From positions 1,962,501-2,026,500 of the forward strand of contig NZ_AP017372.2 of the NCBI RefSeq assembly GCF_002356555.2: a stretch of 64,000 bases of DNA. Direction: 5' to 3'. A model generated the notes under the pieces. The model searched no databases, was not told where the DNA came from, and saw only the letters and a list, made by a program, of their open reading frames with translations. How positions within the stretch are numbered: the first letter of the stretch is position 1; every line of letters begins with the position of its first letter. Both the position numbers and the translations under genes were made by a program. Positions 1-12,745 of the stretch are shown in pieces. The DNA comes from Halorhodospira halochloris (lineage in GTDB: Bacteria > Pseudomonadota > Gammaproteobacteria > Nitrococcales > Halorhodospiraceae).

Positions 1-1666
1 TACTGGAGTGCTCGCGCAGCCACTGCTGCCAATCCGGCCACCAGGAACCCTGCTTCTGCTCAGCCTTATCCAGGAAAGAGTCGGGTGAGACGTAAGGGTC
101 GGAAGCCTTGCGCGGCAGGATGCGGAAGGTGCGCCGCGGATGGCCCGGGGGGGTGACTATGCCGGCGTTGTGGCCACCGGTGGTCAAGGCGAAGGTGACA
201 TCCGCCCGCGGCAGGAAGCGGTTGATCTTGAAGACTGAGCGCCACGGGGCGATATGGTCTTTCTCGGTGCCAATTGCGAAGGTCGGCACTTGAATATCGC
301 CGATGTGGATGGGCTGGCCGCCGACGTCGTAGCGATCCTCAACGAAGTCGTTGTTGAGAAAGAGCCAGCGCAGGTATTCGCTGTGCATGCGGTAGGGCAA
401 GCGCGTCAGGTCGGCATTCCAGGCCATCAGGTCGATGACCTTACCGCGGTCACCCATCATGTAGTCGTGGATCAATCGGGAATAGATCAGGTCCTTGGAG
501 CGCAGCAGCTGGAATGCGCCGGCCATCATGCTGCCATCGAGGTAGCCCTTCTCCCACATCATATCTTCGATGAAGGTCACCTGGCTTTCGTCGATGAATA
601 GCTCCAACTCGCCGGGCTCGGTGAAATCTGCCTGCGCTGCCAGAAGGGTCATGGACGCTAGGCGCTCGTCGCCGTCGCGGGCCATGGTTGCGGCGGCGAG
701 CATGAGCAAGGTGCCACCGAGGCAGTAACCGACGCCGTGAACCTTCTGCTCCGGCACGATGCTGGTAACCGCTTCCAGGGCTTCCATGACCCCCTCGCGG
801 CGGTAGTTGCTCATGCCGAGGTCACGGTCTTCGGAGCCGGGATTTTTCCACGAGATGGTAAAGACGGTGTGGCCTTTGCTGACCAGGTATTCGACCATCG
901 ATTTGCCGGGCGAGAGGTCGAGGATGTAGTACTTCATGATCCACGCCGGCACGATCAGGATCGGCTCGGGGTGGACGGTCTTGGTGGTCGGCTCGTACTG
1001 GATCAGTTCCATGATGCGGTTGCGGTAGACTACCTTGCCGGGGGTAACAGCCAGGTTTTCGCCTACCTTCCAGTGCTCGCCGCCGACCGGCGGTTTTTTG
1101 GTCACATAGCGCTCGACATCCTCAACGGCGTTGGCCATGCCTCTAGCCAGGTTGGCGCCGCCTTCTTGGAGGGTGCGGGCGAGCACTTCGGGGTTGGTGG
1201 CTAGGTAGTTGGACGGCGAGTAGAGGTCGAGCATCTGCCGACCGATGAAGTTAACAACCTCTTCGTGGTGTTGGGTAACGCCGCGCACGCCAGTCGTGGC
1301 GTCGTGCCACCACTGCTGGGTCAGCAAAAAGCCTTGACTGAGCAGATCGTAAGGCCAGGTTTCCCACTCTTCGGCGGCGAAGCGGTCGTCGTTTGGCCAG
1401 GGCTGGATACAGGGTTGTTCGCAGGTTCCGGTCATGCGACTGATGGCGTAGCTTTGGAAGCTCATCAGGTTCCGTGCCGCTTGATCGGCAAGAGCGACCT
1501 GTTTGCCGGGGTGGGAGGCGAGGTGAACTGCCCAGTCGAAGGTGGCGAGGCTGATGGCGACGGGCGAGAGGCCTTGGCTGATGCGGCCGAGGCCGGCGTT
1601 GTAGAGCCGGTCCAGGGTGTAGGCTTGGCGGTCGCTTTCGTCGGGGTCGAGGACGTATGGGTGCAT
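1..1666 (-). CDS. phaC: Class I poly(3-hydroxyalkanoate) synthase, partial (C-terminus beyond window)
   Basis: Polymerises hydroxyacyl-CoA into PHA granules. About 555 codons are visible and the gene runs off the left edge. The N-terminus (about residues 10-50, DRLYNAGLGRISQGLSP then ASHPGKQ) resembles the PHBC_N domain, and an alpha/beta-hydrolase core follows. The lipase-like box GYCLGG puts the catalytic Cys at 315; DHIAPW gives Asp 470 and GGHNAGI gives His 499, the expected triad and spacing for class I enzymes. The ATG at 1666 has an AGAGG ribosome site about 8 nt upstream. No phaA, phaB or phasin gene is adjacent. A 30-bp tandem repeat array begins about 65 bp upstream of the start. 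A second, differently built synthase lies at 15918-17723. Family assignment is certain; substrate chain length is inferred. Confidence 0.95.
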   Translation of the reverse strand, partial: MHPYVLDPDESDRQAYTLDRLYNAGLGRISQGLSPVAISLATFDWAVHLASHPGKQVALADQAARNLMSFQSYAISRMTGTCEQPCIQPWPNDDRFAAEEWETWPYDLLSQGFLLTQQWWHDATTGVRGVTQHHEEVVNFIGRQMLDLYSPSNYLATNPEVLARTLQEGGANLARGMANAVEDVERYVTKKPPVGGEHWKVGENLAVTPGKVVYRNRIMELIQYEPTTKTVHPEPILIVPAWIMKYYILDLSPGKSMVEYLVSKGHTVFTISWKNPGSEDRDLGMSNYRREGVMEALEAVTSIVPEQKVHGVGYCLGGTLLMLAAATMARDGDERLASMTLLAAQADFTEPGELELFIDESQVTFIEDMMWEKGYLDGSMMAGAFQLLRSKDLIYSRLIHDYMMGDRGKVIDLMAWNADLTRLPYRMHSEYLRWLFLNNDFVEDRYDVGGQPIHIGDIQVPTFAIGTEKDHIAPWRSVFKINRFLPRADVTFALTTGGHNAGIVTPPGHPRRTFRILPRKASDPYVSPDSFLDKAEQKQGSWWPDWQQWLREHSS

Positions 1667-1731
1667 GGTGGTACCTCTTGGTTGTTGGTTTTGGCTGCTG
1701 GCGGTCTTTGGGAGAGTCTTTTTTTGGGGAT

Positions 1732-1920
1732 GGCCGGCCCTGGAGATTTTCCCCAGAGCTGGCTGCCCTGGGATGCCATCTTCCCGGGGTTGGCTGGTCC
1801 TGGGAGACCTCCCCTGAGTTGGTCAGCCCTGGGAGATCTCCCCCGGGGTTGGCCAGCCCTGGGAGATCTCCCCCGGGGTTGGCCAGCCCTGGGAGATCTC
1901 CCCCGGGGTTGGCCAGCCCT
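1732..1920. repeat. 30-bp tandem repeat array, about six units
   Basis: Three units of exactly 30 bp (1821-1850, 1851-1880, 1881-1910) are identical apart from one base in the first. Three diverged units of 29-31 bp precede them (1732-1760, 1761-1791, 1792-1820) and a 10-bp partial unit follows. Each good unit reads ggccagccct, gggagatctc, ccccggggtt. It contains the perfect 12-bp palindrome gggagatctccc and the 8-bp palindrome ccccgggg. There are no unique spacers, so this is not a CRISPR array. Position just upstream of phaC suggests repeated protein-binding sites or a minisatellite; function unknown. Confidence 0.9.
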
Positions 1921-1923
1921 GGG

Positions 1924-2006
1924 TATGCCAATATGGGGACGCTACAAGCCGTCCCTGGAAGCTCTCTGCTCGCCATCCATGGCGAGCAAAGCCCCATATT
2001 GGCATA
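1924..2006. repeat. Nested inverted repeat (15-bp outer, 9-bp inner arms)
   Basis: The outer arms tatgccaatatgggg (1924-1938) and its exact complement (1992-2006) enclose an inner hairpin with arms gctcgccat and atggcgagc. The internal text keeps the landmarks of the dispersed element at 12817-12950 (ggacgc, tccctgga, and a central ccatcc hairpin loop), but the arm sequences differ and still pair. It is probably a diverged relative of that family. Confidence 0.75.
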
Positions 2007-2250
2007 TCCCAGGTCCAGCCAACCCCTGAGCCGGAGGCCTTTCTAGGACTCCTTTTCTAGGACTCCTTTTTACCATCCCGGGCAAATAACCCCTTCCTGT
2101 GACCGTACCAGAGCCTATATTCGGCTGTTAGGTTTGAATCCCATCGCTCCCTGCAATATCAAATCCAAGCCTGGCAAAGACCTGTGTCATGATTATTACG
2201 GGATTATACTGCGCTGCACAATTCTAGTAAACAAGATGCGCGCATTTGGT

Positions 2251-2385
2251 GGCCTCTAAAACTTCGCCGGTGCCACCATCCGCCCCGGTGTGGAGATCTT
2301 ATCGCCTGGAATGGCGCCATGAAACCTCCAAGGATAGACTAACGGCGCCCTCCTCACAGGGCAAAACCAGGCGCCGGGCGGATTT
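2251..2385. repeat. Dispersed palindromic element, copy B
   Basis: It shares the ccccggtgtggag arm, the ggcgccatgaaacctcc core and the aacggcgccctcc segment with the copy at 20646-20783. The left end (ggcctctaaaac) is the complement of the right end of that copy, so the outer orientation is reversed. The right arm is degraded. It lies upstream of drrA and may contribute to its leader. About 130 bp, non-coding. Confidence 0.75.
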
Positions 2386-2428
2386 TTGAGTTTTTTCATA
2401 GGACGGCTAATAGGCTTAGAGGATTGGA

Positions 2429-3382
2429 ATGGAATATGCAATTGATGCACGCGGTTTGACTAAGCACTATGCAGCAACCAAGGCGCTGGATGGGGTTGAT
2501 CTGCGGGTCCCTGCGGGCACTGTGTTCGGTCTTTTAGGCCCCAACGGTGCAGGCAAGACTACCACAGTTCGGGCTCTTGCCAGTCTAGTAGAGTTGGATG
2601 CCGGCCAGGCTTGGGTTGGTGGTTTCGATGTCGTGCATGAGCCTCACCGGGTCAGGGAGATCATCGGGCTGACCGGTCAGTACGCCTCGGTCGATGAGAA
2701 GCTGACTGGGCGCGAGAACCTGATCCTAGTGGCGCGCTTGTTAGGCATGTCGCGCCGGGAGGCGCGCGAGCGCGCGCAGCAGATGCTAGATGAGTTCCAT
2801 CTGGGGCAAGCGGCTGACCGAGCCGCGAAGACCTATTCGGGGGGTATGCGCAGGCGTCTCGACCTGGCAGTCAGCCTGGTTGGTCAGCCGCGAATTCTTT
2901 TCCTCGACGAGCCAACTACAGGCCTTGACCCGCGGGCGCGTATGGAGCTGTGGGAACGGATCAGGCGTCTGGTTGAGGCGGGCACAACGGTGCTGCTGAC
3001 GACGCAGTATCTTGATGAAGCTGATGCCTTGGCTGATGAGATCGTGGTGATCAATGAGGGCCGGGTCATAGCGCATGGCACGCCGGAGCAGCTCAAGGAG
3101 CAGGTCGGCACACGGATGCTGGTTGTGGCTATCCGCGCCGGGGCAGACTTCGACCGGGCCGTGAGCGAGGTCACAGACCTGCTCGGTGTAGCACCTAGTA
3201 TTGATGGGCGACGGCTGCGGGCACCGGCTGATGACCCGGACATTTTGCCCGCTCTGGTAAGACGCCTGGATAGCGCCGGTATCGGAGTCGATGAATTGGC
3301 GCTGCAGGGAGCCAATTTGGATGACGTCTTTCTGGCCTTGACTGGCGATAGCAACGAACCGATCAAGGAGGGGCTAAGTTGA
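2429..3382 (+). CDS. DrrA-type ABC transporter ATP-binding protein
   Basis: 317-residue ATPase subunit of an ABC-2 exporter of the daunorubicin-resistance/antibiotic-export type; substrate unknown. Walker A GPNGAGKT is at residues 37-44, the Q-loop region is near 84, the signature YSGGMRRRLDLA begins at 136 and Walker B ILFLDEP is at 156-162. A C-terminal extension after about residue 220 is typical of DrrA-like proteins. The ATG is preceded by AGAGGA about 6 nt upstream. The stop overlaps the TTG start of the permease at 3379 by four bases, so the two are surely co-translated. The specific drug or lipid exported cannot be read from sequence. Confidence 0.93.
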   Translation: MEYAIDARGLTKHYAATKALDGVDLRVPAGTVFGLLGPNGAGKTTTVRALASLVELDAGQAWVGGFDVVHEPHRVREIIGLTGQYASVDEKLTGRENLILVARLLGMSRREARERAQQMLDEFHLGQAADRAAKTYSGGMRRRLDLAVSLVGQPRILFLDEPTTGLDPRARMELWERIRRLVEAGTTVLLTTQYLDEADALADEIVVINEGRVIAHGTPEQLKEQVGTRMLVVAIRAGADFDRAVSEVTDLLGVAPSIDGRRLRAPADDPDILPALVRRLDSAGIGVDELALQGANLDDVFLALTGDSNEPIKEGLS

Positions 3383-4158
3383 TAATATTTAGGCCGCTGC
3401 AGCAGACCCTTACTCTGGCGTGGCGCAGTCTGATCCAGATCCGCCACAACCCCTGGGAGTTGGGTGATTACAGCATTCAGCCGGTGCTGTTTTTGGTGCT
3501 GTTTACCTATGTCTTCGGTGGGGCGATAGCCGGCGGGGCGGATGATTACCTGAGTTTTCTGCTCCCCGGGGTTATAGTCATGAATCTGATGTTTGTGACT
3601 GTCTATGTTGGCCACGGGCTGAATACCGATCTTACCAAAGGTGTTTTCGACCGCTTTCGAGCCTTACCCTTACCGCGCTGGGCACCTCTTGCCGGGCGCA
3701 TAGTGGCCGATTTGGTCAAGCAGGCGATGTGTATCCTGCTGCTTTTGGGGATAGGCTTTTTGCTCGGTTACCGGCTGGAGGGACCATGGTTCGGCGTGCC
3801 GGCGATGATGGTGCTTCTGCTTATTTTCGCCCTGGCCGCTTCGTGGATAATGGTGCTGGTGGGAGTGGTGTCGCGCGACCCGGAGCATGTCCAGCTGTTT
3901 GGTTTCACGGCACTATTTCCGGTGACCTTTGTCAGCAATGTCTTTGTACCGGTGGAGACTATGCCGGACTGGCTACAGGGTATTGTGGCGGTGAATCCTG
4001 TCTCGGTGGTCACTGATGCTGTTCGCGGACTGCTGGAGGGCGGCCCGGTAATGGCAACTGTCACGGGGGCGTTGATGTGGTCTGTGGCGTTAACCGTGAT
4101 CTTTGCGCCTCTGTCAGTCTGGGCGCTTAATCGCAGGTTGGCACGGGGTGGAGGTTAA
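3379..4158 (+). CDS. DrrB-type ABC-2 exporter permease
   Basis: 259-residue inner-membrane partner of the ATPase at 2429-3382. It shows about six hydrophobic segments and the ABC2_membrane pattern, including a motif around PVTFVSNVFVPVETMP near residues 180-195 that is characteristic of DrrB-like permeases. The start is TTG, overlapping the ATPase stop (TTGA), with a GGAGGGG ribosome site inside the upstream gene. No regulator or substrate-biosynthesis gene is adjacent, so the exported compound is unknown. A degenerate palindromic element follows and may act as terminator. Confidence 0.92.
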   Translation: MIIFRPLQQTLTLAWRSLIQIRHNPWELGDYSIQPVLFLVLFTYVFGGAIAGGADDYLSFLLPGVIVMNLMFVTVYVGHGLNTDLTKGVFDRFRALPLPRWAPLAGRIVADLVKQAMCILLLLGIGFLLGYRLEGPWFGVPAMMVLLLIFALAASWIMVLVGVVSRDPEHVQLFGFTALFPVTFVSNVFVPVETMPDWLQGIVAVNPVSVVTDAVRGLLEGGPVMATVTGALMWSVALTVIFAPLSVWALNRRLARGGG

Positions 4159-4167
4159 GGGCGGTTA

Positions 4168-4280
4168 ACCGGAGGCATTAATCCGACCCGGTGTGGAGGT
4201 GCAGGCGCCACTAAGCCTCCAGGGGTAGCACGGCAACGACACCACAGCGGGCCAGATATTGACTCCGGGGAGGTTTGAAG
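4168..4280. repeat. Dispersed palindromic element, copy C (degenerate)
   Basis: It retains acccggtgtggagg, ggcgcca, agcctccagggg and the right flank ccggggaggttt seen at 20761-20777, but lacks part of the core. It lies between the converging ends of drrB and the lipoprotein gene, where a bidirectional terminator role would be plausible. Confidence 0.6.
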
Positions 4281-4314
4281 CCGGAGCCCGCAGAGCGGGT
4301 CCCGGGTTCTAACC

Positions 4315-5847
4315 CTACTGGTCCGAGCAATCAATATCTTCGTAGATCTCTCCCTGGAACTCGAACTCGCATTTATCATCGCTTGTCTTGCGCAGATTCC
4401 CTGAGAAACTTGACCCTCCAACTTCGGTCTCTACCGACATGCTGTAACCATCAAGGTCCTCAACGTTGAATTCTATCTCTTCATCGCCGAGGTCTTTATG
4501 TCTAACTTTAGCCTTATAATTGCCATCATCGTCTTTCTCGAAGCTTATTGCATGGTCGTCGTCACCGTATTCAATTTCCTTACCATCTATGACATCGGTC
4601 AGTTTCTTACCGCGCTGCCATTTATCGGGATTTGCATTTTTACCCTCTTTAAGGAGACTATTATCCTCTCCGCGTGCAAACCCCTCAACATTCAAGGAAG
4701 GACCAAAGCACTTCTCTTTATTACTTCCACAGTCGTCGTCATCGTCAGCCTTAATGCCAATTTCCGCTAAAAACTTGGCAATCTCTTTAAACCCACTGTC
4801 ATTATCACCATCCCAATCCGGTTCCTCTCGCAGAACCAGAGTAGCTGCTTCTATAGCTCGAGCACGGGCGGCTACGTTAGCTTCATCGAATGTAAAATCA
4901 TCGTCATCATGCAGCACATGCCTAAATAAGCCGCCATCGAAGCCGTTATTACCATCTTCCTCACTTCCAATCAGCTTCCAAAGCCATTTCAGGTTGTCAC
5001 GGGGACGTTTATCGTCACCTTGCCACTCCCATTCCAGTTTTTCTTCATTAGCATAACTAGCAGCTAGATCGAATGCGCTTTCAACTACGTCCTCTACAAA
5101 GCCACCAATTCCGTCACTATCCGGGCCACTTTGCCTAACCCAATTTTCAGCTAGTGCCTGGTAAACAAAACGACCCTTCTGGGTGTTCAATTCGTATTTA
5201 TCATGTATTTCTTCCGCGATAACCTCTGCCAGTTTCTGGGCCCGAAACCCCGTACGAATAAGCAGCAAACGCTCCTTATCGGAATAGGAGTTATCATCGA
5301 AATCAAGATAGTCTCCTTCCACGTCGCTCTGAAGTAAGCTGTTTATATCGTCATGCTCATTATTCAGCCATTCGACAAAATCGGCTTTGCCATCACTACC
5401 CATATGACTCATCAGCGAGGTAAGTGGCGTGATGTAAACGCGGTCTAGCTCATCGCCCGGCGATACATCCTCAAAATGGCGGCTCATGGTTACTGGAATG
5501 CGCAGGCCATGCCACTGGTCGCGGCCTTGATGGACACGGAGGATGACGCGATCCATGCCGCCTACGGCGACATCTTTTAGTTCGAACTTGCCGTCTCGAT
5601 CAGTTCTTGATCTGCTGATGCCCTCAACGTAATCGGTTTCAGAGCGGTCCAGATAGACCCTGCCACCGGCTACTGGTCCATCGATAGCGCGCCCTTCAAA
5701 AGATGCCGGGTCATCGCCGGTATCCTGATCAGAGGCATCGTCACAGCCGGTGACACCAAAAAGCAGCAGCGAAGCCACCAGGGCTGATCGCCAAGCGACG
5801 TTGGTACGGAAGGTTTTATGGTTAAAACGCGAGATCAAGTCCAACAT
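4315..5847 (-). CDS. Acidic hypothetical lipoprotein with N-terminal regulatory-like Ig fold
   Basis: 510 residues, not recognised as a named family. The signal peptide ends in the lipobox FGVTGC (Cys35), so it should be lipid-anchored. Residues about 48-95 (FEGRAIDGPVAGGRVYLD, then TDRDGKFEL) look like a carboxypeptidase-regulatory-like beta-sandwich, followed by ITPLTSLMS, a pairing common in secreted bacterial proteins. The remainder is rich in Asp/Glu with runs such as HDDDDF and KADDDDDC. The start overlaps the upstream TraF_2-like gene by 26 bp, so the two are probably one operon. Base composition looks more AT-rich than its neighbours, hinting at a different history. Function unknown. 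Confidence 0.75.
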   Translation of the reverse strand: MLDLISRFNHKTFRTNVAWRSALVASLLLFGVTGCDDASDQDTGDDPASFEGRAIDGPVAGGRVYLDRSETDYVEGISRSRTDRDGKFELKDVAVGGMDRVILRVHQGRDQWHGLRIPVTMSRHFEDVSPGDELDRVYITPLTSLMSHMGSDGKADFVEWLNNEHDDINSLLQSDVEGDYLDFDDNSYSDKERLLLIRTGFRAQKLAEVIAEEIHDKYELNTQKGRFVYQALAENWVRQSGPDSDGIGGFVEDVVESAFDLAASYANEEKLEWEWQGDDKRPRDNLKWLWKLIGSEEDGNNGFDGGLFRHVLHDDDDFTFDEANVAARARAIEAATLVLREEPDWDGDNDSGFKEIAKFLAEIGIKADDDDDCGSNKEKCFGPSLNVEGFARGEDNSLLKEGKNANPDKWQRGKKLTDVIDGKEIEYGDDDHAISFEKDDDGNYKAKVRHKDLGDEEIEFNVEDLDGYSMSVETEVGGSSFSGNLRKTSDDKCEFEFQGEIYEDIDCSDQ

Positions 5848-7183
5848 TGAACATCACCGAACGTGGATAGTCTTGTTCATCATCATCACTCGTATGGGTT
5901 ACATTTTCAAGCCCATATGCGATGTCAAGGCTAAAACTTCTAAAAAGAGTAAAACCGGTGGTGACATACGTCAATTCGCTTCCAGCCATGTTCTCCCGGT
6001 AGCCAAAGCGCCATTCCGGCAGCAAGCGCGCCTGCGGCACGGTTGATACGCTCACGGCAAACCACTGCTGCTCATCGCCTACTGGGTCTTTTACCGAATT
6101 GGTATCGTAGGAGGCAGCCAGGACCCAGCTTTGATCTTGGTTATATATTGCCCCCTCTAAGGACATCTGCGGATCAAGGGTCCAGGTCTCCTCAAGGTCT
6201 ATGCGATCGCCAAATTGCTGAGCCATTGTGCAACGCTCTTGGGCGTCACCACTGAGCTCATGGCAGCATTGGCCGATCGCCCCGAACTCGAGCTCCGGCT
6301 GATTAAGGTTGCGCCCGACTATGCCGAAGCGGTAGTAATCCGAGTTCCAGAGCAAGCCTAAACCAGCGCCGATGTCGGTATCCTGTTTTTGGTTAGCGTC
6401 ATACTCATCGGTTATGGTATCGCCTACATCGTCGGCATCCTGGAGCGGGATAACGATCTTGGATAGATCACTTTGGTAGTGGGTCAAAGAAAAACCAAGC
6501 AGCAGCTCGCTTCGCTCCCCCTGCCAGACGTTGTGGCCGTAACCAAAGGTTATCTCGCGCAGCACCGCACCCTTGATGTAGAGGGAGGTATCTGTCTCGA
6601 TGCCAAAATCTCCACCATCTGCATAGGCATTCACCGGGGCGTCCAATATCCCCAAACGGGCCTGGCCGGTAAAGCGCACATCCAGCGAGATCCCGCCATC
6701 TCCCCACGGCAGCTGCATGCTCAGCGGGGTTATCGGAACGTGGCCAAAGGCCGATAGCTTGGCGTAGCCGTCCTCGCCGGCCTGGACAAGAAATTCGTTG
6801 GCCTTGTCCCGGGCATCCTCAGCATCAGCTATAGTATTGAAATCACCGTCCAAATCATCCTGCAGCTCATCCAACTCATCGATAAGATCATCAACAGGAC
6901 CCAACTCCGCACCAGCCCCGACGCGCAGAATACTGGTCGAGAAGGCTGGACCGATCGGCGATGCGGCGGGGTTAATGCTGGTATCGCGGGCATGGGGGTG
7001 ACTGACGTTGCCGAGGGTCAGGGAACTGCCTGAACTTAGGCCGGCAGTCGGTGACGCCGTCGCGGTTCCGGCTAGCGTCGCCCCACCTAGTGCCAACATG
7101 GCCCAGCCGGTTAACAGGGCGGTATTGGCAACACGGTCAAGCAGTGCCGGCTTACTATCCTGCTGTACATCCCGATCCCGCAT
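5822..7183 (-). CDS. TraF_2-like outer-membrane barrel protein
   Basis: 453 residues with a signal peptide (cleavage near TATASP, about residue 42). After it comes the INPAASP segment typical of the TraF_2/UPF0164-like family of FadL-type barrels; these are often labelled conjugal transfer TraF, but here there is no conjugation gene nearby. The C-terminus ends in alternating hydrophobic residues and Phe (VGLDLAF), as expected for a beta-barrel. An internal CC pair and another Cys (about residues 325-340) are unusual for such barrels. Start choice: a GTG at 7192 and an ATG at 7189 lie too close to GAGGAG; the ATG at 7183 is 8 nt from it. It overlaps the upstream gene's stop region and the downstream lipoprotein, implying an operon. 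Role unknown. Confidence 0.7.
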   Translation of the reverse strand: MRDRDVQQDSKPALLDRVANTALLTGWAMLALGGATLAGTATASPTAGLSSGSSLTLGNVSHPHARDTSINPAASPIGPAFSTSILRVGAGAELGPVDDLIDELDELQDDLDGDFNTIADAEDARDKANEFLVQAGEDGYAKLSAFGHVPITPLSMQLPWGDGGISLDVRFTGQARLGILDAPVNAYADGGDFGIETDTSLYIKGAVLREITFGYGHNVWQGERSELLLGFSLTHYQSDLSKIVIPLQDADDVGDTITDEYDANQKQDTDIGAGLGLLWNSDYYRFGIVGRNLNQPELEFGAIGQCCHELSGDAQERCTMAQQFGDRIDLEETWTLDPQMSLEGAIYNQDQSWVLAASYDTNSVKDPVGDEQQWFAVSVSTVPQARLLPEWRFGYRENMAGSELTYVTTGFTLFRSFSLDIAYGLENVTHTSDDDEQDYPRSVMFNVGLDLAF

Positions 7184-7188
7184 CGGCA

Positions 7189-8613
7189 TCACTCCTCATC
7201 ATCCTCAGCGGCAGTGTCCCCGGTGTCGGCATCCTCGTCATCCGCCTCATCCGGGCCTGCCTCTTCCGGGGCAGGCTCCTCTACGGGGAAGTCAGCACCG
7301 ACGATTATGCGCACATTTGCCCCGCGGGGGATCTCGGGATCGGCAGCGCTTACCTCAGGACTGCCTGGAAGGGTCTCGCCCAGAGTTGTTGCTGCAGTTA
7401 CAAACCCCTCCCGATAATGGACCTCAGTAACATCGCGGGGCGGCTCGTCGACTCTTTCTACGCGCCGCACTATCCTGTGGCCCTGGCGTTCCAACTCCTC
7501 GATCAGCTGACTAGCCGGCGCACGCTCACCCGAGCGGTTAACAACTTCGATATGCAAGGCCCCGGAACGCCGCTCCAGACGCTCTATAGCATCCCGATTA
7601 TCCGCCGTGCGGCTGCCCAGGAAGGATAAATTGGTGCGGAGACTCTCAGCCTCAGCGCTCAGTTCGTCACCCAATTCAGTCAAGCGTTCATCTTGCGATT
7701 CACTGTCGCGGCGCAGTGAGGCGGTACGGGCAAAGAGCTGCTCATCGTTCTGCGCCAAGCGGCGTTTTTCTGCCTCTAGCTGCTCGATGCGCGCAGTAAG
7801 GCTCTGCCGCGATTCCCGTGGTTCCGGGGTATAGACGAAGGTGAGCTGGATAGTATCGCTCGGTGCCGTTTCACGTTCTACCACTTCCTGGCCATATACT
7901 AGCCGCCAATCGCTATGCGGAGTCGGGCTCCAGCGCAGGCCGGGGCGCACATATAAGGCAAACTGATTCTGTACCTCTTCACCGCTCAAACCTATATGGG
8001 TCTCAAGCTCAGCGCTCAGGGCCAAACTCTGCCCCAGTCCTTGCTCAAGGCGAGTGGCATAACGCAGCCGATTAATAGCTTCATAGCCCTCCTGGTCTCG
8101 GTAAGCAACATCAGCCCTCTCCAAGCCCAGGAACCCATCAACTCGGGCAGCACTGTCACCTATCCGCTGTCCTATATGTAGGGCTAGTCCCGCCCCTTCA
8201 CTGCCACTACCCAGCCAGGGCTCATCGGTTGGCAGTAACCGGCCATGGGCAGTGAGGGTTACATGACTATCGTTATCGGCATCAGCGGCGAGCGGAAAGC
8301 CAAAGGCGAACTCAACCCCGTGCAAATCCCTCTTATCATCAACCTGGCGCACCGGCAGGCCAATCTCTATGTCGTGCCCGGTGGATATGCCGTAGCGAAA
8401 GGCAGGATTCGCTATCAGTAAATCTTCATCACGCTCATCTTGTTCCCAGCTATGGCTAGAGAAGGTCAATCGATGCTCACTCGACCCATCGGGTAGCACC
8501 CCGCCCCCGCGGAAGTCGTAGGCATGCGCCCCTAGTGCTGCCCCACCCAGGATAATCGCTACCGATAGCCGCCATTTAGCCAGTTTTTCTCCCCCACCGA
8601 ATAGTCCTAGCAT
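7189..8613 (-). CDS. Outer-membrane barrel-like protein with coiled coil and LytR_C domain
   Basis: About 474 residues from the ATG at 8613 (AAGG 5 nt upstream); an open frame extends to 8670 but lacks a ribosome site. A signal peptide (LSVAIILGGAALGAHA) precedes about 230 residues of alternating-pattern sequence resembling transport-type outer-membrane barrels. A roughly 80-residue coiled coil with LTARIEQLEAEKRRL follows. Next comes a domain with IEVVNRSG, LIEELERQGHRI and GANVRIIVGADF, matching the LytR cell-envelope C-terminal pattern, and then a very acidic tail ending AAEDDEE. The architecture suggests a protein linking outer membrane and periplasm or peptidoglycan, but this is inference. 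It lies 84 bp after ybbP (or 26 bp by the longest frame) and abuts the TraF_2-like gene. Confidence 0.7.
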   Translation of the reverse strand: MLGLFGGGEKLAKWRLSVAIILGGAALGAHAYDFRGGGVLPDGSSEHRLTFSSHSWEQDERDEDLLIANPAFRYGISTGHDIEIGLPVRQVDDKRDLHGVEFAFGFPLAADADNDSHVTLTAHGRLLPTDEPWLGSGSEGAGLALHIGQRIGDSAARVDGFLGLERADVAYRDQEGYEAINRLRYATRLEQGLGQSLALSAELETHIGLSGEEVQNQFALYVRPGLRWSPTPHSDWRLVYGQEVVERETAPSDTIQLTFVYTPEPRESRQSLTARIEQLEAEKRRLAQNDEQLFARTASLRRDSESQDERLTELGDELSAEAESLRTNLSFLGSRTADNRDAIERLERRSGALHIEVVNRSGERAPASQLIEELERQGHRIVRRVERVDEPPRDVTEVHYREGFVTAATTLGETLPGSPEVSAADPEIPRGANVRIIVGADFPVEEPAPEEAGPDEADDEDADTGDTAAEDDEE

Positions 8614-8696
8614 AGTAGCCTTGTCTATATCTTTGCGCCTATCTTTTCCTAGCGGCATAAACCGCGTCAAGTTTAGCTGCTAGGCATAACTGAGTT

Positions 8697-11237
8697 TCAT
8701 AAGCTCCCATGGGCCTCGCCGGCCCTTAGCAGCTCCATTGGGCTCGAGCGCCAATCACGCCGCGCCCCCAACCACCCCGCGGTAGCCACCAGGATCGCAC
8801 CCGCTAAGAGGCCGAGCAGAACAACCAGCCACGGGAATGAGTAATCAAGCTCAAACAGCTCGCGCGCGGCGAAGTAACCACCGGCAGCAGCCCCAACCCC
8901 TGCCAAGGCCCCAGCCAGTGCGCCGGTGAAGGCCAATTCAGCCACTGCAGCCCGCCCCAGGCGGCGCCGCGAAGCCCCCAAAGCGCGCATCAGTGAGGCC
9001 TCAAAACGCCGCTCAGCGGCGGCGGTGCGCAGCGCCGCCAACAGCACTATCAGCCCGGCCAGCAGAGTCAAGGAGGCGATAATCTCCACTACCCGTACAC
9101 CCTGATCGACAATCTCGCGCCCGGTGGCGATAATCGCCCCCACGTCGATCGGCGTCGCGCCCGGAAAACGTTGACTTAATTCCGCCAGCAGGCGATCTGA
9201 CTCCTCTCCTAACCGAAAACTGGTTATGTACTCCGGGTGATCGGCATCGAGCAACCCGGGCGCTGCAATAACGAAAAAGTTTGGATTAAAGCTGATCCAG
9301 CTCACCTCGCGCAGCGAGGTGACAGTGCCTCTTACCGTTTCGCCATCAATGACAAAGCTCAGCTCATCGCCCACCTCGATACCCAGCTGCTCGGCATAGC
9401 TCTCCTCCACCGACCACTCCGCGCCCGGCTCATCGCCCCACCAGCTGCCTGCTATGACTTCGTTATCCGCAGGCAGCTCATCGGCCCAGGTAAGATTGGC
9501 ATCGCGGGAGACCATCCGCCGTGTGCGGGGCGAATCGTAATCCTCGACGCTTATCTGCTCCCCGGATATGGCCTCCAACCGGCCGCGAACCATGGCAAAT
9601 AAGTTGATATCGCGGCCGAGTTCGGCGGCTAGGTAGTCACGCAGTGGCTCAACCTCGTGCGGGGCAAGGTCGATCATGAAGGTATCGGCGGCATCCGCGG
9701 GGATACTATCCTGCCAGGTATCGAGCAGGTCGTCGTGGACGACGCTCAGGGTAAGCAGGGCCATCAGCCCGACCCCTACGGCTACTACTTGAGCCAGGGT
9801 TGCTGCCGGGCGCCGGGTTGGCCCACTGAGCCACCACAGCCGCCCAGCCGAGCGCCGGCGCAGCCATGCCGCCAGAAGGATCACCAGCCCGGCGGCTAAA
9901 CCGAGCGCCATCAGGGTCAGCAGCAGCACCCCGGTTATGGTCAGCCCGAGTTGAAGATCACCGGCCTGGAGCAGCAATAGGCCTATGAGTACGGCGCCAG
10001 CTATTAGATAGGCCGTCATTGAACGGACTACTCCGGACCCGGCGCTGCGCCGCAGGACTCGCATCGGTGGCACATGGCGCAAGCGGATTACACTGGGTAG
10101 GGCAAAACCGGCCGCTGCCACCATACCCACGCCGATGCCGTATAACGCCGGCATCGGCCCAGGGGCGCCGAGGTTGGGTGGCAACGCCTCACTCAACAGG
10201 GCGAGCATCAGCGCCTGCAGGGCATAGCCGAGTGCCACCCCGAACAGGCCGGCCAACAGGGCCAATAGGCTGATAATGGTGCCTTGGCAGAGCAGGATAG
10301 TGCCTTGACGGGCGCCGAGGACGCGCATCATGGCGATGCGATCAAGCTGCGCTGCGGCATAGTGGCGGGCTGTTAAAAGCACCGCGGCGGCAGCCACGAC
10401 TACGGTTATCAAAGCGGCGAGGCCGAGAAAACGCTCGGCCTGGGCGGTGATCGTCTCGACCGCCGGCTGCGCTTCGCTGCCGGTCAACACCTCTGCTTCC
10501 TGCGCCGGCCCCGAGGCATCATCTTTTAGCCAGGCAGCAAAGGCATCGAGAGCCTGTTGATCGCCGGCGAGCAAAAGGGCATGGCGCACTTGTGAGCCTT
10601 CGACAACGAGCCCGCTAGACTCCATGTCCGACCAACTAATCAACACCCGCGGCCCGAGGGCACCAAAGATCTGCGCCCGATCCGGCTCGGCCGTTATCAA
10701 CCGCGAGATCGTCAAACTCTTATCGCCGAGTTCGAGTTCCTCGCCGGTTGCGGTGTCAAGCAGTGCCAGCAGCCGCGGTTCCACCCACGCCTCGCCGTCA
10801 GGCGGCGGCCCGGTGGTATCCTGCTCCTCTCCATCACGCTGGGCGCTGGTGAGCAGTTGACCGCGCAGCGGATAGCCCTGCTCGACCGCCTTGACCGCAA
10901 CCAGCTGACTACGCTCGCCAAGCATGACCACGGTCGGAAACTCAACCATCCGCGCCGCTGCCAAGCCAAGTTCAGTAGCTTGCTCGCGCCACTCGGCGGG
11001 AACCGGCTGATTGGCTCGAACCACTCGGTCGGCTGCGACCAATTCGGCGGCGCGCTCTTCTGCTGCTGCCCCGGCGCGCTCAGTAACCCAGCCAACTGAG
11101 CTAACCGCTGCCACCGCGACAACTAGTGCGGCAACGAGGATGCCTAAGTGACCAGCGCGCAGGTCGACGACCAGCAGCCGCATGGCAAGCTGCACGCTAG
11201 CCTTGGCGGTTGTCCCCCGCTGCCGGTTGCCTGCCAT
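8697..11237 (-). CDS. ybbP: YbbP-type FtsX-like ABC transporter permease
   Basis: Large inner-membrane permease partner of the ATPase encoded at 11242-12018. The 846-residue protein has an N-terminal transmembrane segment, a long periplasmic domain, FtsX-like membrane blocks near residues 260-380 and at the C-terminus (about 720-835), and internal hydrophobic segments, about ten in all. Members of this family act as mechanotransmission-type transporters rather than classical exporters; the substrate is unknown. The ATG at 11237 follows the ybbA stop by 4 nt and has GGAG about 10 nt upstream, so I prefer it to an earlier in-frame ATG at 11312 inside ybbA. The ybbA-ybbP pair divergent from tesA is the same arrangement as in E. 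coli. Confidence 0.9.
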   Translation of the reverse strand: MAGNRQRGTTAKASVQLAMRLLVVDLRAGHLGILVAALVVAVAAVSSVGWVTERAGAAAEERAAELVAADRVVRANQPVPAEWREQATELGLAAARMVEFPTVVMLGERSQLVAVKAVEQGYPLRGQLLTSAQRDGEEQDTTGPPPDGEAWVEPRLLALLDTATGEELELGDKSLTISRLITAEPDRAQIFGALGPRVLISWSDMESSGLVVEGSQVRHALLLAGDQQALDAFAAWLKDDASGPAQEAEVLTGSEAQPAVETITAQAERFLGLAALITVVVAAAAVLLTARHYAAAQLDRIAMMRVLGARQGTILLCQGTIISLLALLAGLFGVALGYALQALMLALLSEALPPNLGAPGPMPALYGIGVGMVAAAGFALPSVIRLRHVPPMRVLRRSAGSGVVRSMTAYLIAGAVLIGLLLLQAGDLQLGLTITGVLLLTLMALGLAAGLVILLAAWLRRRSAGRLWWLSGPTRRPAATLAQVVAVGVGLMALLTLSVVHDDLLDTWQDSIPADAADTFMIDLAPHEVEPLRDYLAAELGRDINLFAMVRGRLEAISGEQISVEDYDSPRTRRMVSRDANLTWADELPADNEVIAGSWWGDEPGAEWSVEESYAEQLGIEVGDELSFVIDGETVRGTVTSLREVSWISFNPNFFVIAAPGLLDADHPEYITSFRLGEESDRLLAELSQRFPGATPIDVGAIIATGREIVDQGVRVVEIIASLTLLAGLIVLLAALRTAAAERRFEASLMRALGASRRRLGRAAVAELAFTGALAGALAGVGAAAGGYFAARELFELDYSFPWLVVLLGLLAGAILVATAGWLGARRDWRSSPMELLRAGEAHGSL

Positions 11238-11241
11238 TGAG

Positions 11242-12018
11242 CTAGCTCCGCTCACGCTGTACGTCCCGCAACGCCTCGTCAACGCTGGCAAGCTCGCTAA
11301 GAACGCCATCACGGAACGAGCAGATCCGCCGACAGCGCGAGGCGACCTGGGGATCGTGAGTGACCATAACCAGGGTGGTCGAGCGCTGCCTATTGAGATC
11401 GAAGAGCAGGTCTATGACCTCCCGGCCAGTCGCATCATCTAGATTACCGGTGGGCTCATCTGCCATCAGTAACTGCGGTCCGGTCACCAGCGCCCGCGCC
11501 AGGGCTACGCGCTGCTGCTCACCGCCGGAGAGGCGCTCGGGAGGGTGGCGTAAGCGATGGCCGAGGCCAACCCACTGCAGGGCCTCCTGGGCTGCTTGTG
11601 CATCGCTCCGCCCGGGGGCCAGATCAAGGGCCAAGCGGACGTTCTCCTCGGCGCTCAGCCCGCGCAGCAGATGAAAGGCCTGGAAGACAAAACCAAGTCG
11701 CCCGGCGCGCAGCGCTGCTCGAGCATCCTCATCAAGGGGGCTGATATCCTCGCCGCAGAGCCAGACCCTCCCGCTGGTGGGCCTCTCCAACCCGGCCAAG
11801 AGACCGAGCAGGGTCGATTTGCCGGAGCCTGAGGCGCCGAGGATGGCGACGCTATCGCCGGGGGCAACGCTGAGATTGAGATCAGCGAAGAGGGTCACCT
11901 CCCCATCGGGCCCGGCGAAGCTCATCCCCAGCGCCTCAGCGGCGAGTATCGGCGCAGTAGCTGCGCCCCGCTCAGCCGACCCAGAGCCGGCAGATGATGC
12001 TAGTATGGGATCCTGCAT
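11242..12018 (-). CDS. ybbA: YbbA/LolD-family ABC transporter ATP-binding protein
   Basis: 258-residue ATPase that energises the FtsX-like permease YbbP immediately downstream. Motifs in order: Walker [10 protein letters not shown] (about residues 60-68), signature [15 protein letters not shown] (about 163-177), Walker [13 protein letters not shown], and the H-loop VTHD. The MacB/LolD/FtsE branch is indicated by this signature. Only 28 bp separates its start from the divergent tesA start, so the promoters must overlap the coding regions or one start is further in. Its E. coli counterpart is also divergent from tesA. Confidence 0.92.
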
Positions 12019-12046
12019 ATGCTTTTATTTAGGGTGCTCGACTGAT

Positions 12047-12745
12047 ATGTGGTTGTGGCAATTCGCTAAGCGCTATTTTCAGCGCCTGAGTGAGGCCTCG
12101 GTAGAGGGATGCAGACTAGGGCGATCGCTAAAGGCCTCTCTGATCTCATTACTGGTTATTCTCTCACTCTCAGCCCCACTGAGCCTATCCGCCGATGACG
12201 ACGTGATACTAGTCTTCGGCGACTCTCTCTCCACCGCCTACGGCTTCGAGCGCGACAAGGCGTGGCCAGCACTGCTCGATCAACAGCTTGCCGAGCACGG
12301 CCTAGACTACCGCGTGGTCAACACCAGCCGCAGCGGCGAAACCACCGGCGGCGGCCTGCGCCGCCTGCCCGATACGCTCGAGGAGCATGAGCCGGCCATT
12401 ACCCTAATCCAACTCGGCGGTAATGATGGCTTACGCGGCCAGCCGCCGCAACGCATAAAGAGTAACCTCAGAGAAATGATTACGCTTGCCGAGCAGGCCG
12501 ACAGCGAGGTGGTACTGATCGGCATCCGCATTCCGCCGAACTACGGTAGGGCCTATGCGGAGCGTTTCGAGCAAATCTACCCGGCGCTGGCCGAGGAGCA
12601 CGATATTGAATTGATCCCATTCTTGCTCGAAGGGATCTGGGATAAGGAGGGGATGATGCAGGATGACGGCATCCACCCTAGCGCCGCGGCACAACCGAAG
12701 ATCCTTGAACTAGTATGGGATATGCTGGAGGACTCGGTTAAGTAG
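12047..12745 (+). CDS. tesA: Acyl-CoA thioesterase I / arylesterase TesA
   Basis: 232-residue periplasmic SGNH hydrolase that cleaves acyl thioesters and esters and has lysophospholipase activity in relatives. A hydrophobic signal segment (about 30-48) precedes the GDSL-type block FGDSLS with Ser60. GGND places Asn126, and DGIHPS gives Asp207 and His210, completing the catalytic set. The start is the ATG at 12047. It is divergent from ybbA, as in many gammaproteobacteria. The stop is followed by a dispersed palindromic element (12817-12950) shared with the converging rdgC. Confidence 0.93.
   Translation: MWLWQFAKRYFQRLSEASVEGCRLGRSLKASLISLLVILSLSAPLSLSADDDVILVFGDSLSTAYGFERDKAWPALLDQQLAEHGLDYRVVNTSRSGETTGGGLRRLPDTLEEHEPAITLIQLGGNDGLRGQPPQRIKSNLREMITLAEQADSEVVLIGIRIPPNYGRAYAERFEQIYPALAEEHDIELIPFLLEGIWDKEGMMQDDGIHPSAAAQPKILELVWDMLEDSVK

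Follow-up and report, generated by a model that had tools for sequence, protein, structure and literature searches.

QDxG, a putative barrel-linked lipoprotein tag in a conserved TraF_2 barrel-lipoprotein gene pair of Gammaproteobacteria

Halorhodospira halochloris carries, in a 2.83 Mb single-contig genome, a block of three envelope genes that we analysed within a stretch of 64,000 nucleotides (contig NZ_AP017372.2, positions 1,962,501 to 2,026,500; hereafter the window, in whose coordinates positions are given). The genes lie on the - strand in the order ybbA, ybbP, BAR, TraF_2, LIPO, all in the same direction, with BAR (7189..8613, 474 amino acids from its ATG) encoding a protein with a barrel, a coiled coil and a LytR_C domain, TraF_2 (5822..7192) an outer-membrane barrel with a FadL fold, and LIPO (4315..5847) an acidic lipoprotein that we propose to be the cognate partner of this barrel. 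BAR and TraF_2 overlap by 4 bases, and TraF_2 and LIPO by 26. An earlier note on this DNA, made from the sequence alone, had described three same-direction envelope genes, overlapping or nearly touching, within 4315-8613, all with export signals, and our analysis bears this out: the open reading frames (ORFs) are present, taking for BAR the first ATG at 8613 (an alternative TTG start would extend the gene to 7189-8670 and the protein to 493 amino acids), and export signals, called by eye and regular expression rather than by a signal-peptide program, are found on all three proteins. In LIPO the lipobox reads GVTG-C35, with the codon of the cysteine at 5743..5745. The more widely conserved unit here is the pair of barrel and lipoprotein genes, not the three-gene block, and the paired lipoproteins share a short segment behind the lipobox cysteine, QDxG, which to judge from sequence may be a new, barrel-linked lipoprotein tag.

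The TraF_2-like barrel of the earlier note is assigned with ease to PF13729 (E 1e-48, 166.2 bits against a cut-off of 25), and its structure model, of modest confidence (pLDDT 66, six sequences), has a FadL fold. FadL itself (2r88_A) is the top VIA-align match (Z 22.0, rmsd 4.5, 292 residues aligned), with CymD, TbuX and TodX close behind, and Foldseek also places FadL first (best E 3e-7). The model further resembles 9n2d_B of the Flavobacterium johnsoniae BAM complex, a chain that we take to be BamG (Z 19.6, rmsd 4.6, 306 aligned), and 6h3i_F of the type 9 translocon, presumably PorV (Z 18.4, rmsd 5.6, 265 aligned). In an alignment of 13 proteins, N74 and P75 are invariant and A76 nearly so, a triplet that recalls the NPA hatch of FadL (N33-P34-A35), a putative equivalence that draws on PDB titles rather than on an alignment of residues; the cysteine pair C310 and C321 is nearly invariant as well. 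At E up to 1 the protein matches neither Toluene_X (PF03349) nor DUF560, and against the PorP/SprF proteins of the type 9 secretion system it reaches 29.5 bits with TIGR03519, below the cut-off of 90.55, and 25.4 bits with Pfam PF11751, just above the cut-off of 22.3. As modelled, the 'TraF' of the window has the fold of FadL and is no conjugation protein. Barrels of this kind are sparse, found in 18 of 369 genomes of the class (E 1e-10) and 5 of 398 genomes of the phylum (E 1e-20), own genome included in both counts. Separately, a TraF_2 barrel of a distant type adjoins an ABC ATPase gene and a permease-looking gene both elsewhere in the genome of the window (L065 6438-8926) and in a relative (G002, L067 8073-11626).

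A lipoprotein gene directly downstream is a frequent companion of these barrels. Such a neighbour, of the type recognised by our A5 domain profile, follows 25 of the 59 TraF_2 proteins placed on a tree, in six families, with gaps of -86 to +46 bases (the larger overlaps stem from choosing the longest ORF), and the paired lipoproteins form 17 clusters at 40% identity. One family has the lipoprotein directly downstream in all 14 TraF loci, from all 13 genomes. The pairing is scattered on the tree at a cost of nine gains or losses, below all 500 shuffles (mean 19.2), and since it needs fewer changes than any shuffle, it is either old with losses, or has been gained repeatedly. LIPO itself finds a match in 6 of 59 genomes, a count that takes in the own genome and any distant or partial matches. 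The earlier note had held that its proposal would fail if the three genes occurred apart in relatives, which is the case in part: TraF-lipoprotein pairs occur without BAR, BAR and TraF stand together without LIPO in one relative (G007), and solitary BAR paralogues exist. Two further arrangements were seen around these barrels. Downstream of a second TraF-lipoprotein pair, in G006 (L073 441-9468), the same strand encodes a small lipoprotein, a CHASE2-adenylate cyclase, an SH3 protein, an M48 peptidase and a Toluene_X (FadL-like) barrel, and two tandem TraF_2 barrels with no A5-type lipoprotein neighbour occur in two genomes of one family (L281 and L282, in G570 and G555).

No Pfam family above its cut-off, and none at E up to 0.1, describes LIPO, which has a weak CarboxypepD_reg match at E 0.12, and its 18 relatives yield just single weak Pfam matches. 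A profile of 18 lipoproteins searched against PDB sequences (E up to 1) returned only CarD, at E 0.34 to 0.78, which we take as chance, and no lipoprotein. For the small lipoproteins near some TraF genes a label of 'LpoB-like' was considered and dropped, the one that was scanned having no Pfam support. What the paired lipoproteins do have in common is a post-lipidation motif, which in LIPO reads Q41-D42-T43-G44 (5716..5727). Of the 25 paired lipoproteins, 21 have QDxG no more than 15 residues from the cysteine, with its Q at +5 to +10 (20 when the lipobox is defined more strictly, a definition that the LNAC box of L265 escapes), as do 14 of 17 representatives of the 40% clusters. Shuffling the 15 post-cysteine residues gave a mean of 0.53 motifs, and a maximum of 4 in 5000 trials. 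Across the 17 clusters, under 40% identical, Q, D and G are kept while the neighbouring residues vary (that an Asp fills its column in 17 of 17 representatives is by construction, as the loose forms were chosen by pattern), and in the pair of L274, judged by eye, the domain that follows has drifted and QDxG is retained.

The motif goes with the barrel neighbour, and not with the lipoprotein domain as such. As controls we used all 35 matches outside pairs from a class-wide search with the N-terminal domain, together with an unpaired relative from G039, where a TraF-lipoprotein pair is present too; a lipobox was recognised in 34 of these 36 proteins. QDxG is present in none of the 34, which share the N-terminal domain and the lipobox and have no TraF neighbour in view, and the control in G039 is among those lacking it. 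Their linkers are mostly rich in Gly and Ser; in a few controls the rule placed the cysteine too early, and behind the later cysteines, placed by eye, QDxG is also missing. Fisher's test of paired against control proteins gives P of about 2e-12 when relatives are treated as independent. The loci hold 177 further ORFs with a lipobox-like sequence, probably including many that are not genes, and none of these has QDxG; no QDxG lipoprotein without a TraF neighbour turned up in the loci, no genome-wide search for unlinked ones having been made. Among the titles and openings of abstracts listed in literature searches, with some lists covering only part of the results and subscription papers mostly outside them, none describes a TraF_2-lipoprotein pair or a QDxG lipoprotein motif, and PF13729 is mentioned in none of the papers searched.

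BAR is the third member of the block. The LytR_C domain that the earlier note had read in it is confirmed by PF13399 (E 9e-9, 36.6 bits against a cut-off of 22.2; residues 372-461 of the 493-amino-acid form, 7288..7557), and an AlphaFold model, built from four sequences at pLDDT 64 and pTM 0.48, shows strands, then two long helices, then the small alpha/beta domain that is LytR_C, in line with the barrel and the coiled coil also claimed. The barrel domain (model residues 45-261, 7831..8481) has 14 strand elements, 11 long and 3 short, and fold matches suggest about 12 membrane strands; the coiled coil (model residues 269-350, 7564..7809) also stands out as an insertion in the alignment. A COG4313 channel is the best fold match of the barrel (4rl8_C, Z 19.2, rmsd 3.6, 230 aligned), followed by FapF (5o65_A, Z 18.1, rmsd 3.6, 222 aligned); the barrels of autotransporters and small porins trail the top by no more than about 2.5 Z units, so that the kinship with these channels is a tentative one. 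These barrel matches filled the structure look-up, which thus barely probed LytR_C and the coiled coil. On the model, BAR is an outer-membrane barrel of COG4313/FapF-like type with a coiled coil and a LytR_C domain. FapF also carries a coiled coil, but in BAR the coil lies C-terminal to the barrel and ends in LytR_C. Two leads were set aside: a BAR profile against PDB sequences, with 2m5y as its best match (E 0.035, over LytR_C) and the rest chance-like and mostly over the coiled coil, was not used, and a role in anti-phage defence, for which BAR gave only a weak match over the coiled coil (E 0.007), was rejected.

Six BAR proteins, all from the interval between ybbP and phaC, can be aligned over barrel and LytR_C, the window copy having the longest coiled coil, and BAR and TraF are adjacent in six of six loci with this kind of BAR, a recurrence that speaks against a chance arrangement. 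BAR matches are found in 7 of 59 genomes (own included, distant or partial matches counted), and a class-wide search with BAR and its paralogues matched 8 of 369 genomes, own included. Paralogues without TraF beside them occur at L066, L075 and L077, next to an ORF that we take to be hemN. Elsewhere, proteins matching both barrel and LytR_C are found once in G173, twice in G291 and twice, in tandem, in G086; in G159, G263 and G364 the protein that bears LytR_C has a lipobox, judged by eye, and in G355 it has neither barrel nor lipobox. The repeated occurrence of LytR_C on outer-membrane anchors would fit a periplasmic reach towards the cell wall. In three genomes the barrel- or lipobox-anchored LytR_C proteins adjoin a small gene containing MGTEIERKF or MATEIERKF, presumably CYTH-like (L140 5561-8645, L142 6159-6815, L144 4174-4857).

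The block lies in an interval whose contents vary. Upstream are ybbP (8697..11312), recognised by NCBIfam NF041854 (E 7e-135, 450.8 bits, below the cut-off of 999) and its FtsX domains, and ybbA (11242..12018; NF007879, E 6e-70, 235.5 bits, below the cut-off of 336), with a tesA-like GDSL hydrolase gene diverging from ybbA on the + strand (PF13472, E 1e-25; 12140..12745 being the stretch tested, its true start not fixed). Among relatives, nine loci include ybbA; seven of them have the divergent tesA as well, and in two the contig stops at ybbA. At the far border lies a putative phaC gene on the - strand (2..1666), with orthologues of 70-80% identity at the same border in seven relatives. The interval between them (1667-8696 in the window; L059, L060, L061, L154, L155, L224 and L226 in relatives) was read in eight genomes. 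BAR-TraF-LIPO fills it in the window genome, G006 and G008, joined in the window by an ABC-2 type ATPase/permease pair before phaC (2429..4158, + strand; PF00005, PF01061), which we judge to lie outside the module. G007 has a distant-type TraF, a small lipoprotein, BAR and TraF, with no LIPO; G002 one TraF_2 gene, oppositely oriented; G003 a porin-like ORF, identified by eye; and in G001 and G005 the slot is empty, with nothing recognisable in the roughly 120 bases between ybbP and phaC. In G011 the last codons of ybbP precede an extra TraF and then BAR-TraF-LIPO, and in G009 the contig ends before the slot can be read. By name, the records with the three-gene block are two Halorhodospira metagenome-assembled genomes (MAGs) and one Ectothiorhodospiraceae MAG. 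Because the slot contents differ between genomes, the block is best described as one alternative cargo of a slot that varies within this genus. Immediately upstream of phaC, short direct repeats around CCCTGGGAGATCTCCCCCGGGGTTGGCCAG were spotted by eye (window 1780-1935).

From these observations we propose that the block is an accessory outer-membrane module housed in the variable ybbP-phaC slot and independent of YbbAP. Its core would be a FadL-fold TraF_2 barrel in a fixed complex with the lipoprotein encoded by the adjacent gene, whose post-cysteine segment, with consensus x(3-8)-Q-D-x-G, would dock into the barrel at a lateral opening or at the rim, and so hold the lipoprotein at its own barrel, probably on the outer leaflet, in the way that the N-terminus of BamH is held on BamG. 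The partnered cargo would probably bind ligands or act as a scaffold at the surface. BAR would be a second barrel, added in Halorhodospiraceae, whose coiled coil and LytR_C would project from the outer membrane towards the cell wall through the periplasm and probably tether the assembly there. Docking by QDxG is proposed because a FadL-fold barrel gene with a tagged lipoprotein gene is the design of BamG-BamH: BamG is homologous to FadL and has the conserved BamH N-terminus lodged inside its barrel, and a putative operon encodes BamG2-BamH2 (available text of PMC12578637). The likeness extends to a FadL-homologous 14-strand barrel, a lipoprotein with a conserved N-terminus and the fold match of TraF to 9n2d_B. 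The two differ in phylum, BamG-BamH being of Bacteroidota, the profile search against PDB sequences found no kinship of the lipoproteins, and the TraF-paired proteins have QDxG at +5 to +10 in place of an acidic stretch at +2 to +6. Such a cognate complex, in which BAR would be an optional periplasmic tether, is the reading that we favour, if tentatively and at somewhat less than an even chance. Its broader form, that TraF_2 barrels act as receptors or translocators and QDxG as an address label in an undescribed surface-lipoprotein system of Gammaproteobacteria, with BAR extending it to the cell wall, we regard as rather doubtful.

Several observations weigh against the docked complex. The TraF model is of the modest confidence given above, and Foldseek superposes it only loosely on FadL (TM 0.33-0.39, rmsd 12-15), VIA-align still giving Z 22. 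The pairing takes nine changes on the TraF tree, and solo barrels exist (L060 in G007, L064, L072, L078, L121-L124, four in G555/G570, and the distant type; L062 lies at a contig end, so that its partner status is not readable), which indicates that the barrel can function without this lipoprotein. A different small lipoprotein, without the motif, follows TraF at L064 and the distant-type TraF of L060, and the A5 profile was made from 14 paired proteins with the motif columns included, so that pairs with other kinds of lipoprotein went uncounted. Four of the pairs have no strict motif, reading NPDGG, DGDSG and, twice, DPDTS. In five controls (L208, L209, L212, L291 and L295) the contig ends less than 400 bases upstream, where a TraF neighbour is possible, and kinship is closer among the paired lipoproteins than between them and the controls, so that part of the motif contrast may be due to descent. 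Lastly, Asp at +2, which retains E. coli lipoproteins in the inner membrane, is found in 2 of 17 representatives, LIPO among them.

The alternative that survives best, and that we consider unlikely without thinking it far-fetched, is that TraF_2 takes up a hydrophobic compound as a channel of FadL type, with LIPO as a periplasmic or surface ligand binder and QDxG as no more than an inherited linker or a local structural cap. The top fold matches of TraF, the invariant N74-P75 with its echo of the NPA hatch and the existence of solo barrels all suit a channel. A mere linker, however, should drift over 17 clusters of less than 40% identity, and Q, D and G persist; the same domain elsewhere carries mostly Gly/Ser-rich linkers, with QDxG in none of the 34 controls. 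TraF shares the barrel fold with FadL and TodX, and its invariant N-P recalls the NPA hatch, but it differs from them in lacking a Toluene_X match, in its fixed lipoprotein partner and in the near-invariant C310/C321.

Improbable, in our judgement, is a reading in which TraF_2, like Slam, has the dedicated task of flipping its lipoprotein to the surface, with QDxG as the export signal. In Slam (type XI) secretion of Proteobacteria, a barrel gene likewise lies beside a lipoprotein gene, but TraF has no DUF560 match, and the loci yielded no QDxG lipoprotein apart from a TraF neighbour, within the limits of that search; we know of no FadL-fold barrel that translocates proteins, a further point against a translocator. 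Short post-cysteine signals do occur in surface lipoproteins of Bacteroidota, whose LES, C-x-K-(D/E)2 near the cysteine, is common to many proteins, while for the surface lipoproteins of Neisseria a conserved signal had not been found as of 2016 (both according to the available text of PMC5080379). LES and QDxG are alike in being short conserved segments behind the cysteine, and LIPO has two acidic residues right after it, but QDxG differs in sequence and position and was seen only beside one barrel family. The minimal LES consensus, K-(D/E)2 or Q-A-(D/E)2 next to the cysteine, occurs in 0 of 17 representatives; at least two acidic residues among the six after the cysteine, the looser rule (available text of PMC12578637), are present in 8 of 17, including LIPO (DDASDQ).

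The earlier note had suggested that YbbAP drives a transport or remodelling machine to which BAR, TraF and LIPO contribute the outer-membrane and periplasmic components, a link for which we found no support and that we consider very improbable. Position speaks for it: in G000, G006, G007, G008 and G011 the block or its extra TraF comes straight after ybbP or the final ybbP codons, on the same strand, and within one family BAR and TraF stay together behind ybbP, so that BAR-TraF may have some contact with YbbAP. The note had also named strong promoters or terminators splitting the genes from ybbP and from each other as counter-evidence; a scan of 4100-12300 stayed at the level of shuffled sequence (3 promoter-like sites against a mean of 3.5, 6 terminator-like against 6.0), with a weak promoter-like site (9/12) just upstream of LIPO (5910-5882, - strand) and neither kind of site between ybbP and BAR, so that the scan sets no operon borders. 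Against the machine, ybbP is present in 23 of 24 genomes searched, own included (the miss, G009, is 81% complete), mostly without the block, as against BAR in 7 of 59; in other species the slot is empty or holds other barrels; and in 10 TraF-lipoprotein loci elsewhere no ybbP match was found, the search leaving out 11 further loci. The E. coli YbbAP has a partner of its own, TesA, with which it forms a lipid hydrolase complex; the neighbourhood of ybbA, ybbP and divergent tesA is alike, but the complex described consists of YbbA, YbbP and TesA, with no outer-membrane barrel or lipoprotein named in the available text of PMC12646458. YbbAP is probably a neighbour of the block, and not its engine. 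That the block is a remnant of a conjugative element, with TraF_2 akin to the TraF of the F plasmid, is scarcely credible, as only the Pfam name, which derives from the F transfer operon, supports it, against the FadL fold, the absence of any tblastn match of TraF or LIPO in 72,556 plasmids at E 1e-5, and the fixed chromosomal borders ybbP and phaC.

How lipoproteins of Proteobacteria are delivered to the surface and retained there is largely an open question, with Slam as one known route. A short motif that tracks one barrel family offers a testable pair of label and receptor, and the TraF-lipoprotein unit would be a Proteobacterial parallel to BamG-BamH of Bacteroidota. A misleading name is also corrected, as the 'TraF' of this locus, and by kinship its family, appears from the model to be a FadL-fold barrel. 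If the broader reading, with QDxG as an address label, is true, QDxG would be, to our knowledge, the first tag for lipoprotein sorting or docking in Proteobacteria to have a dedicated barrel, the product of the adjacent gene, as its reader.

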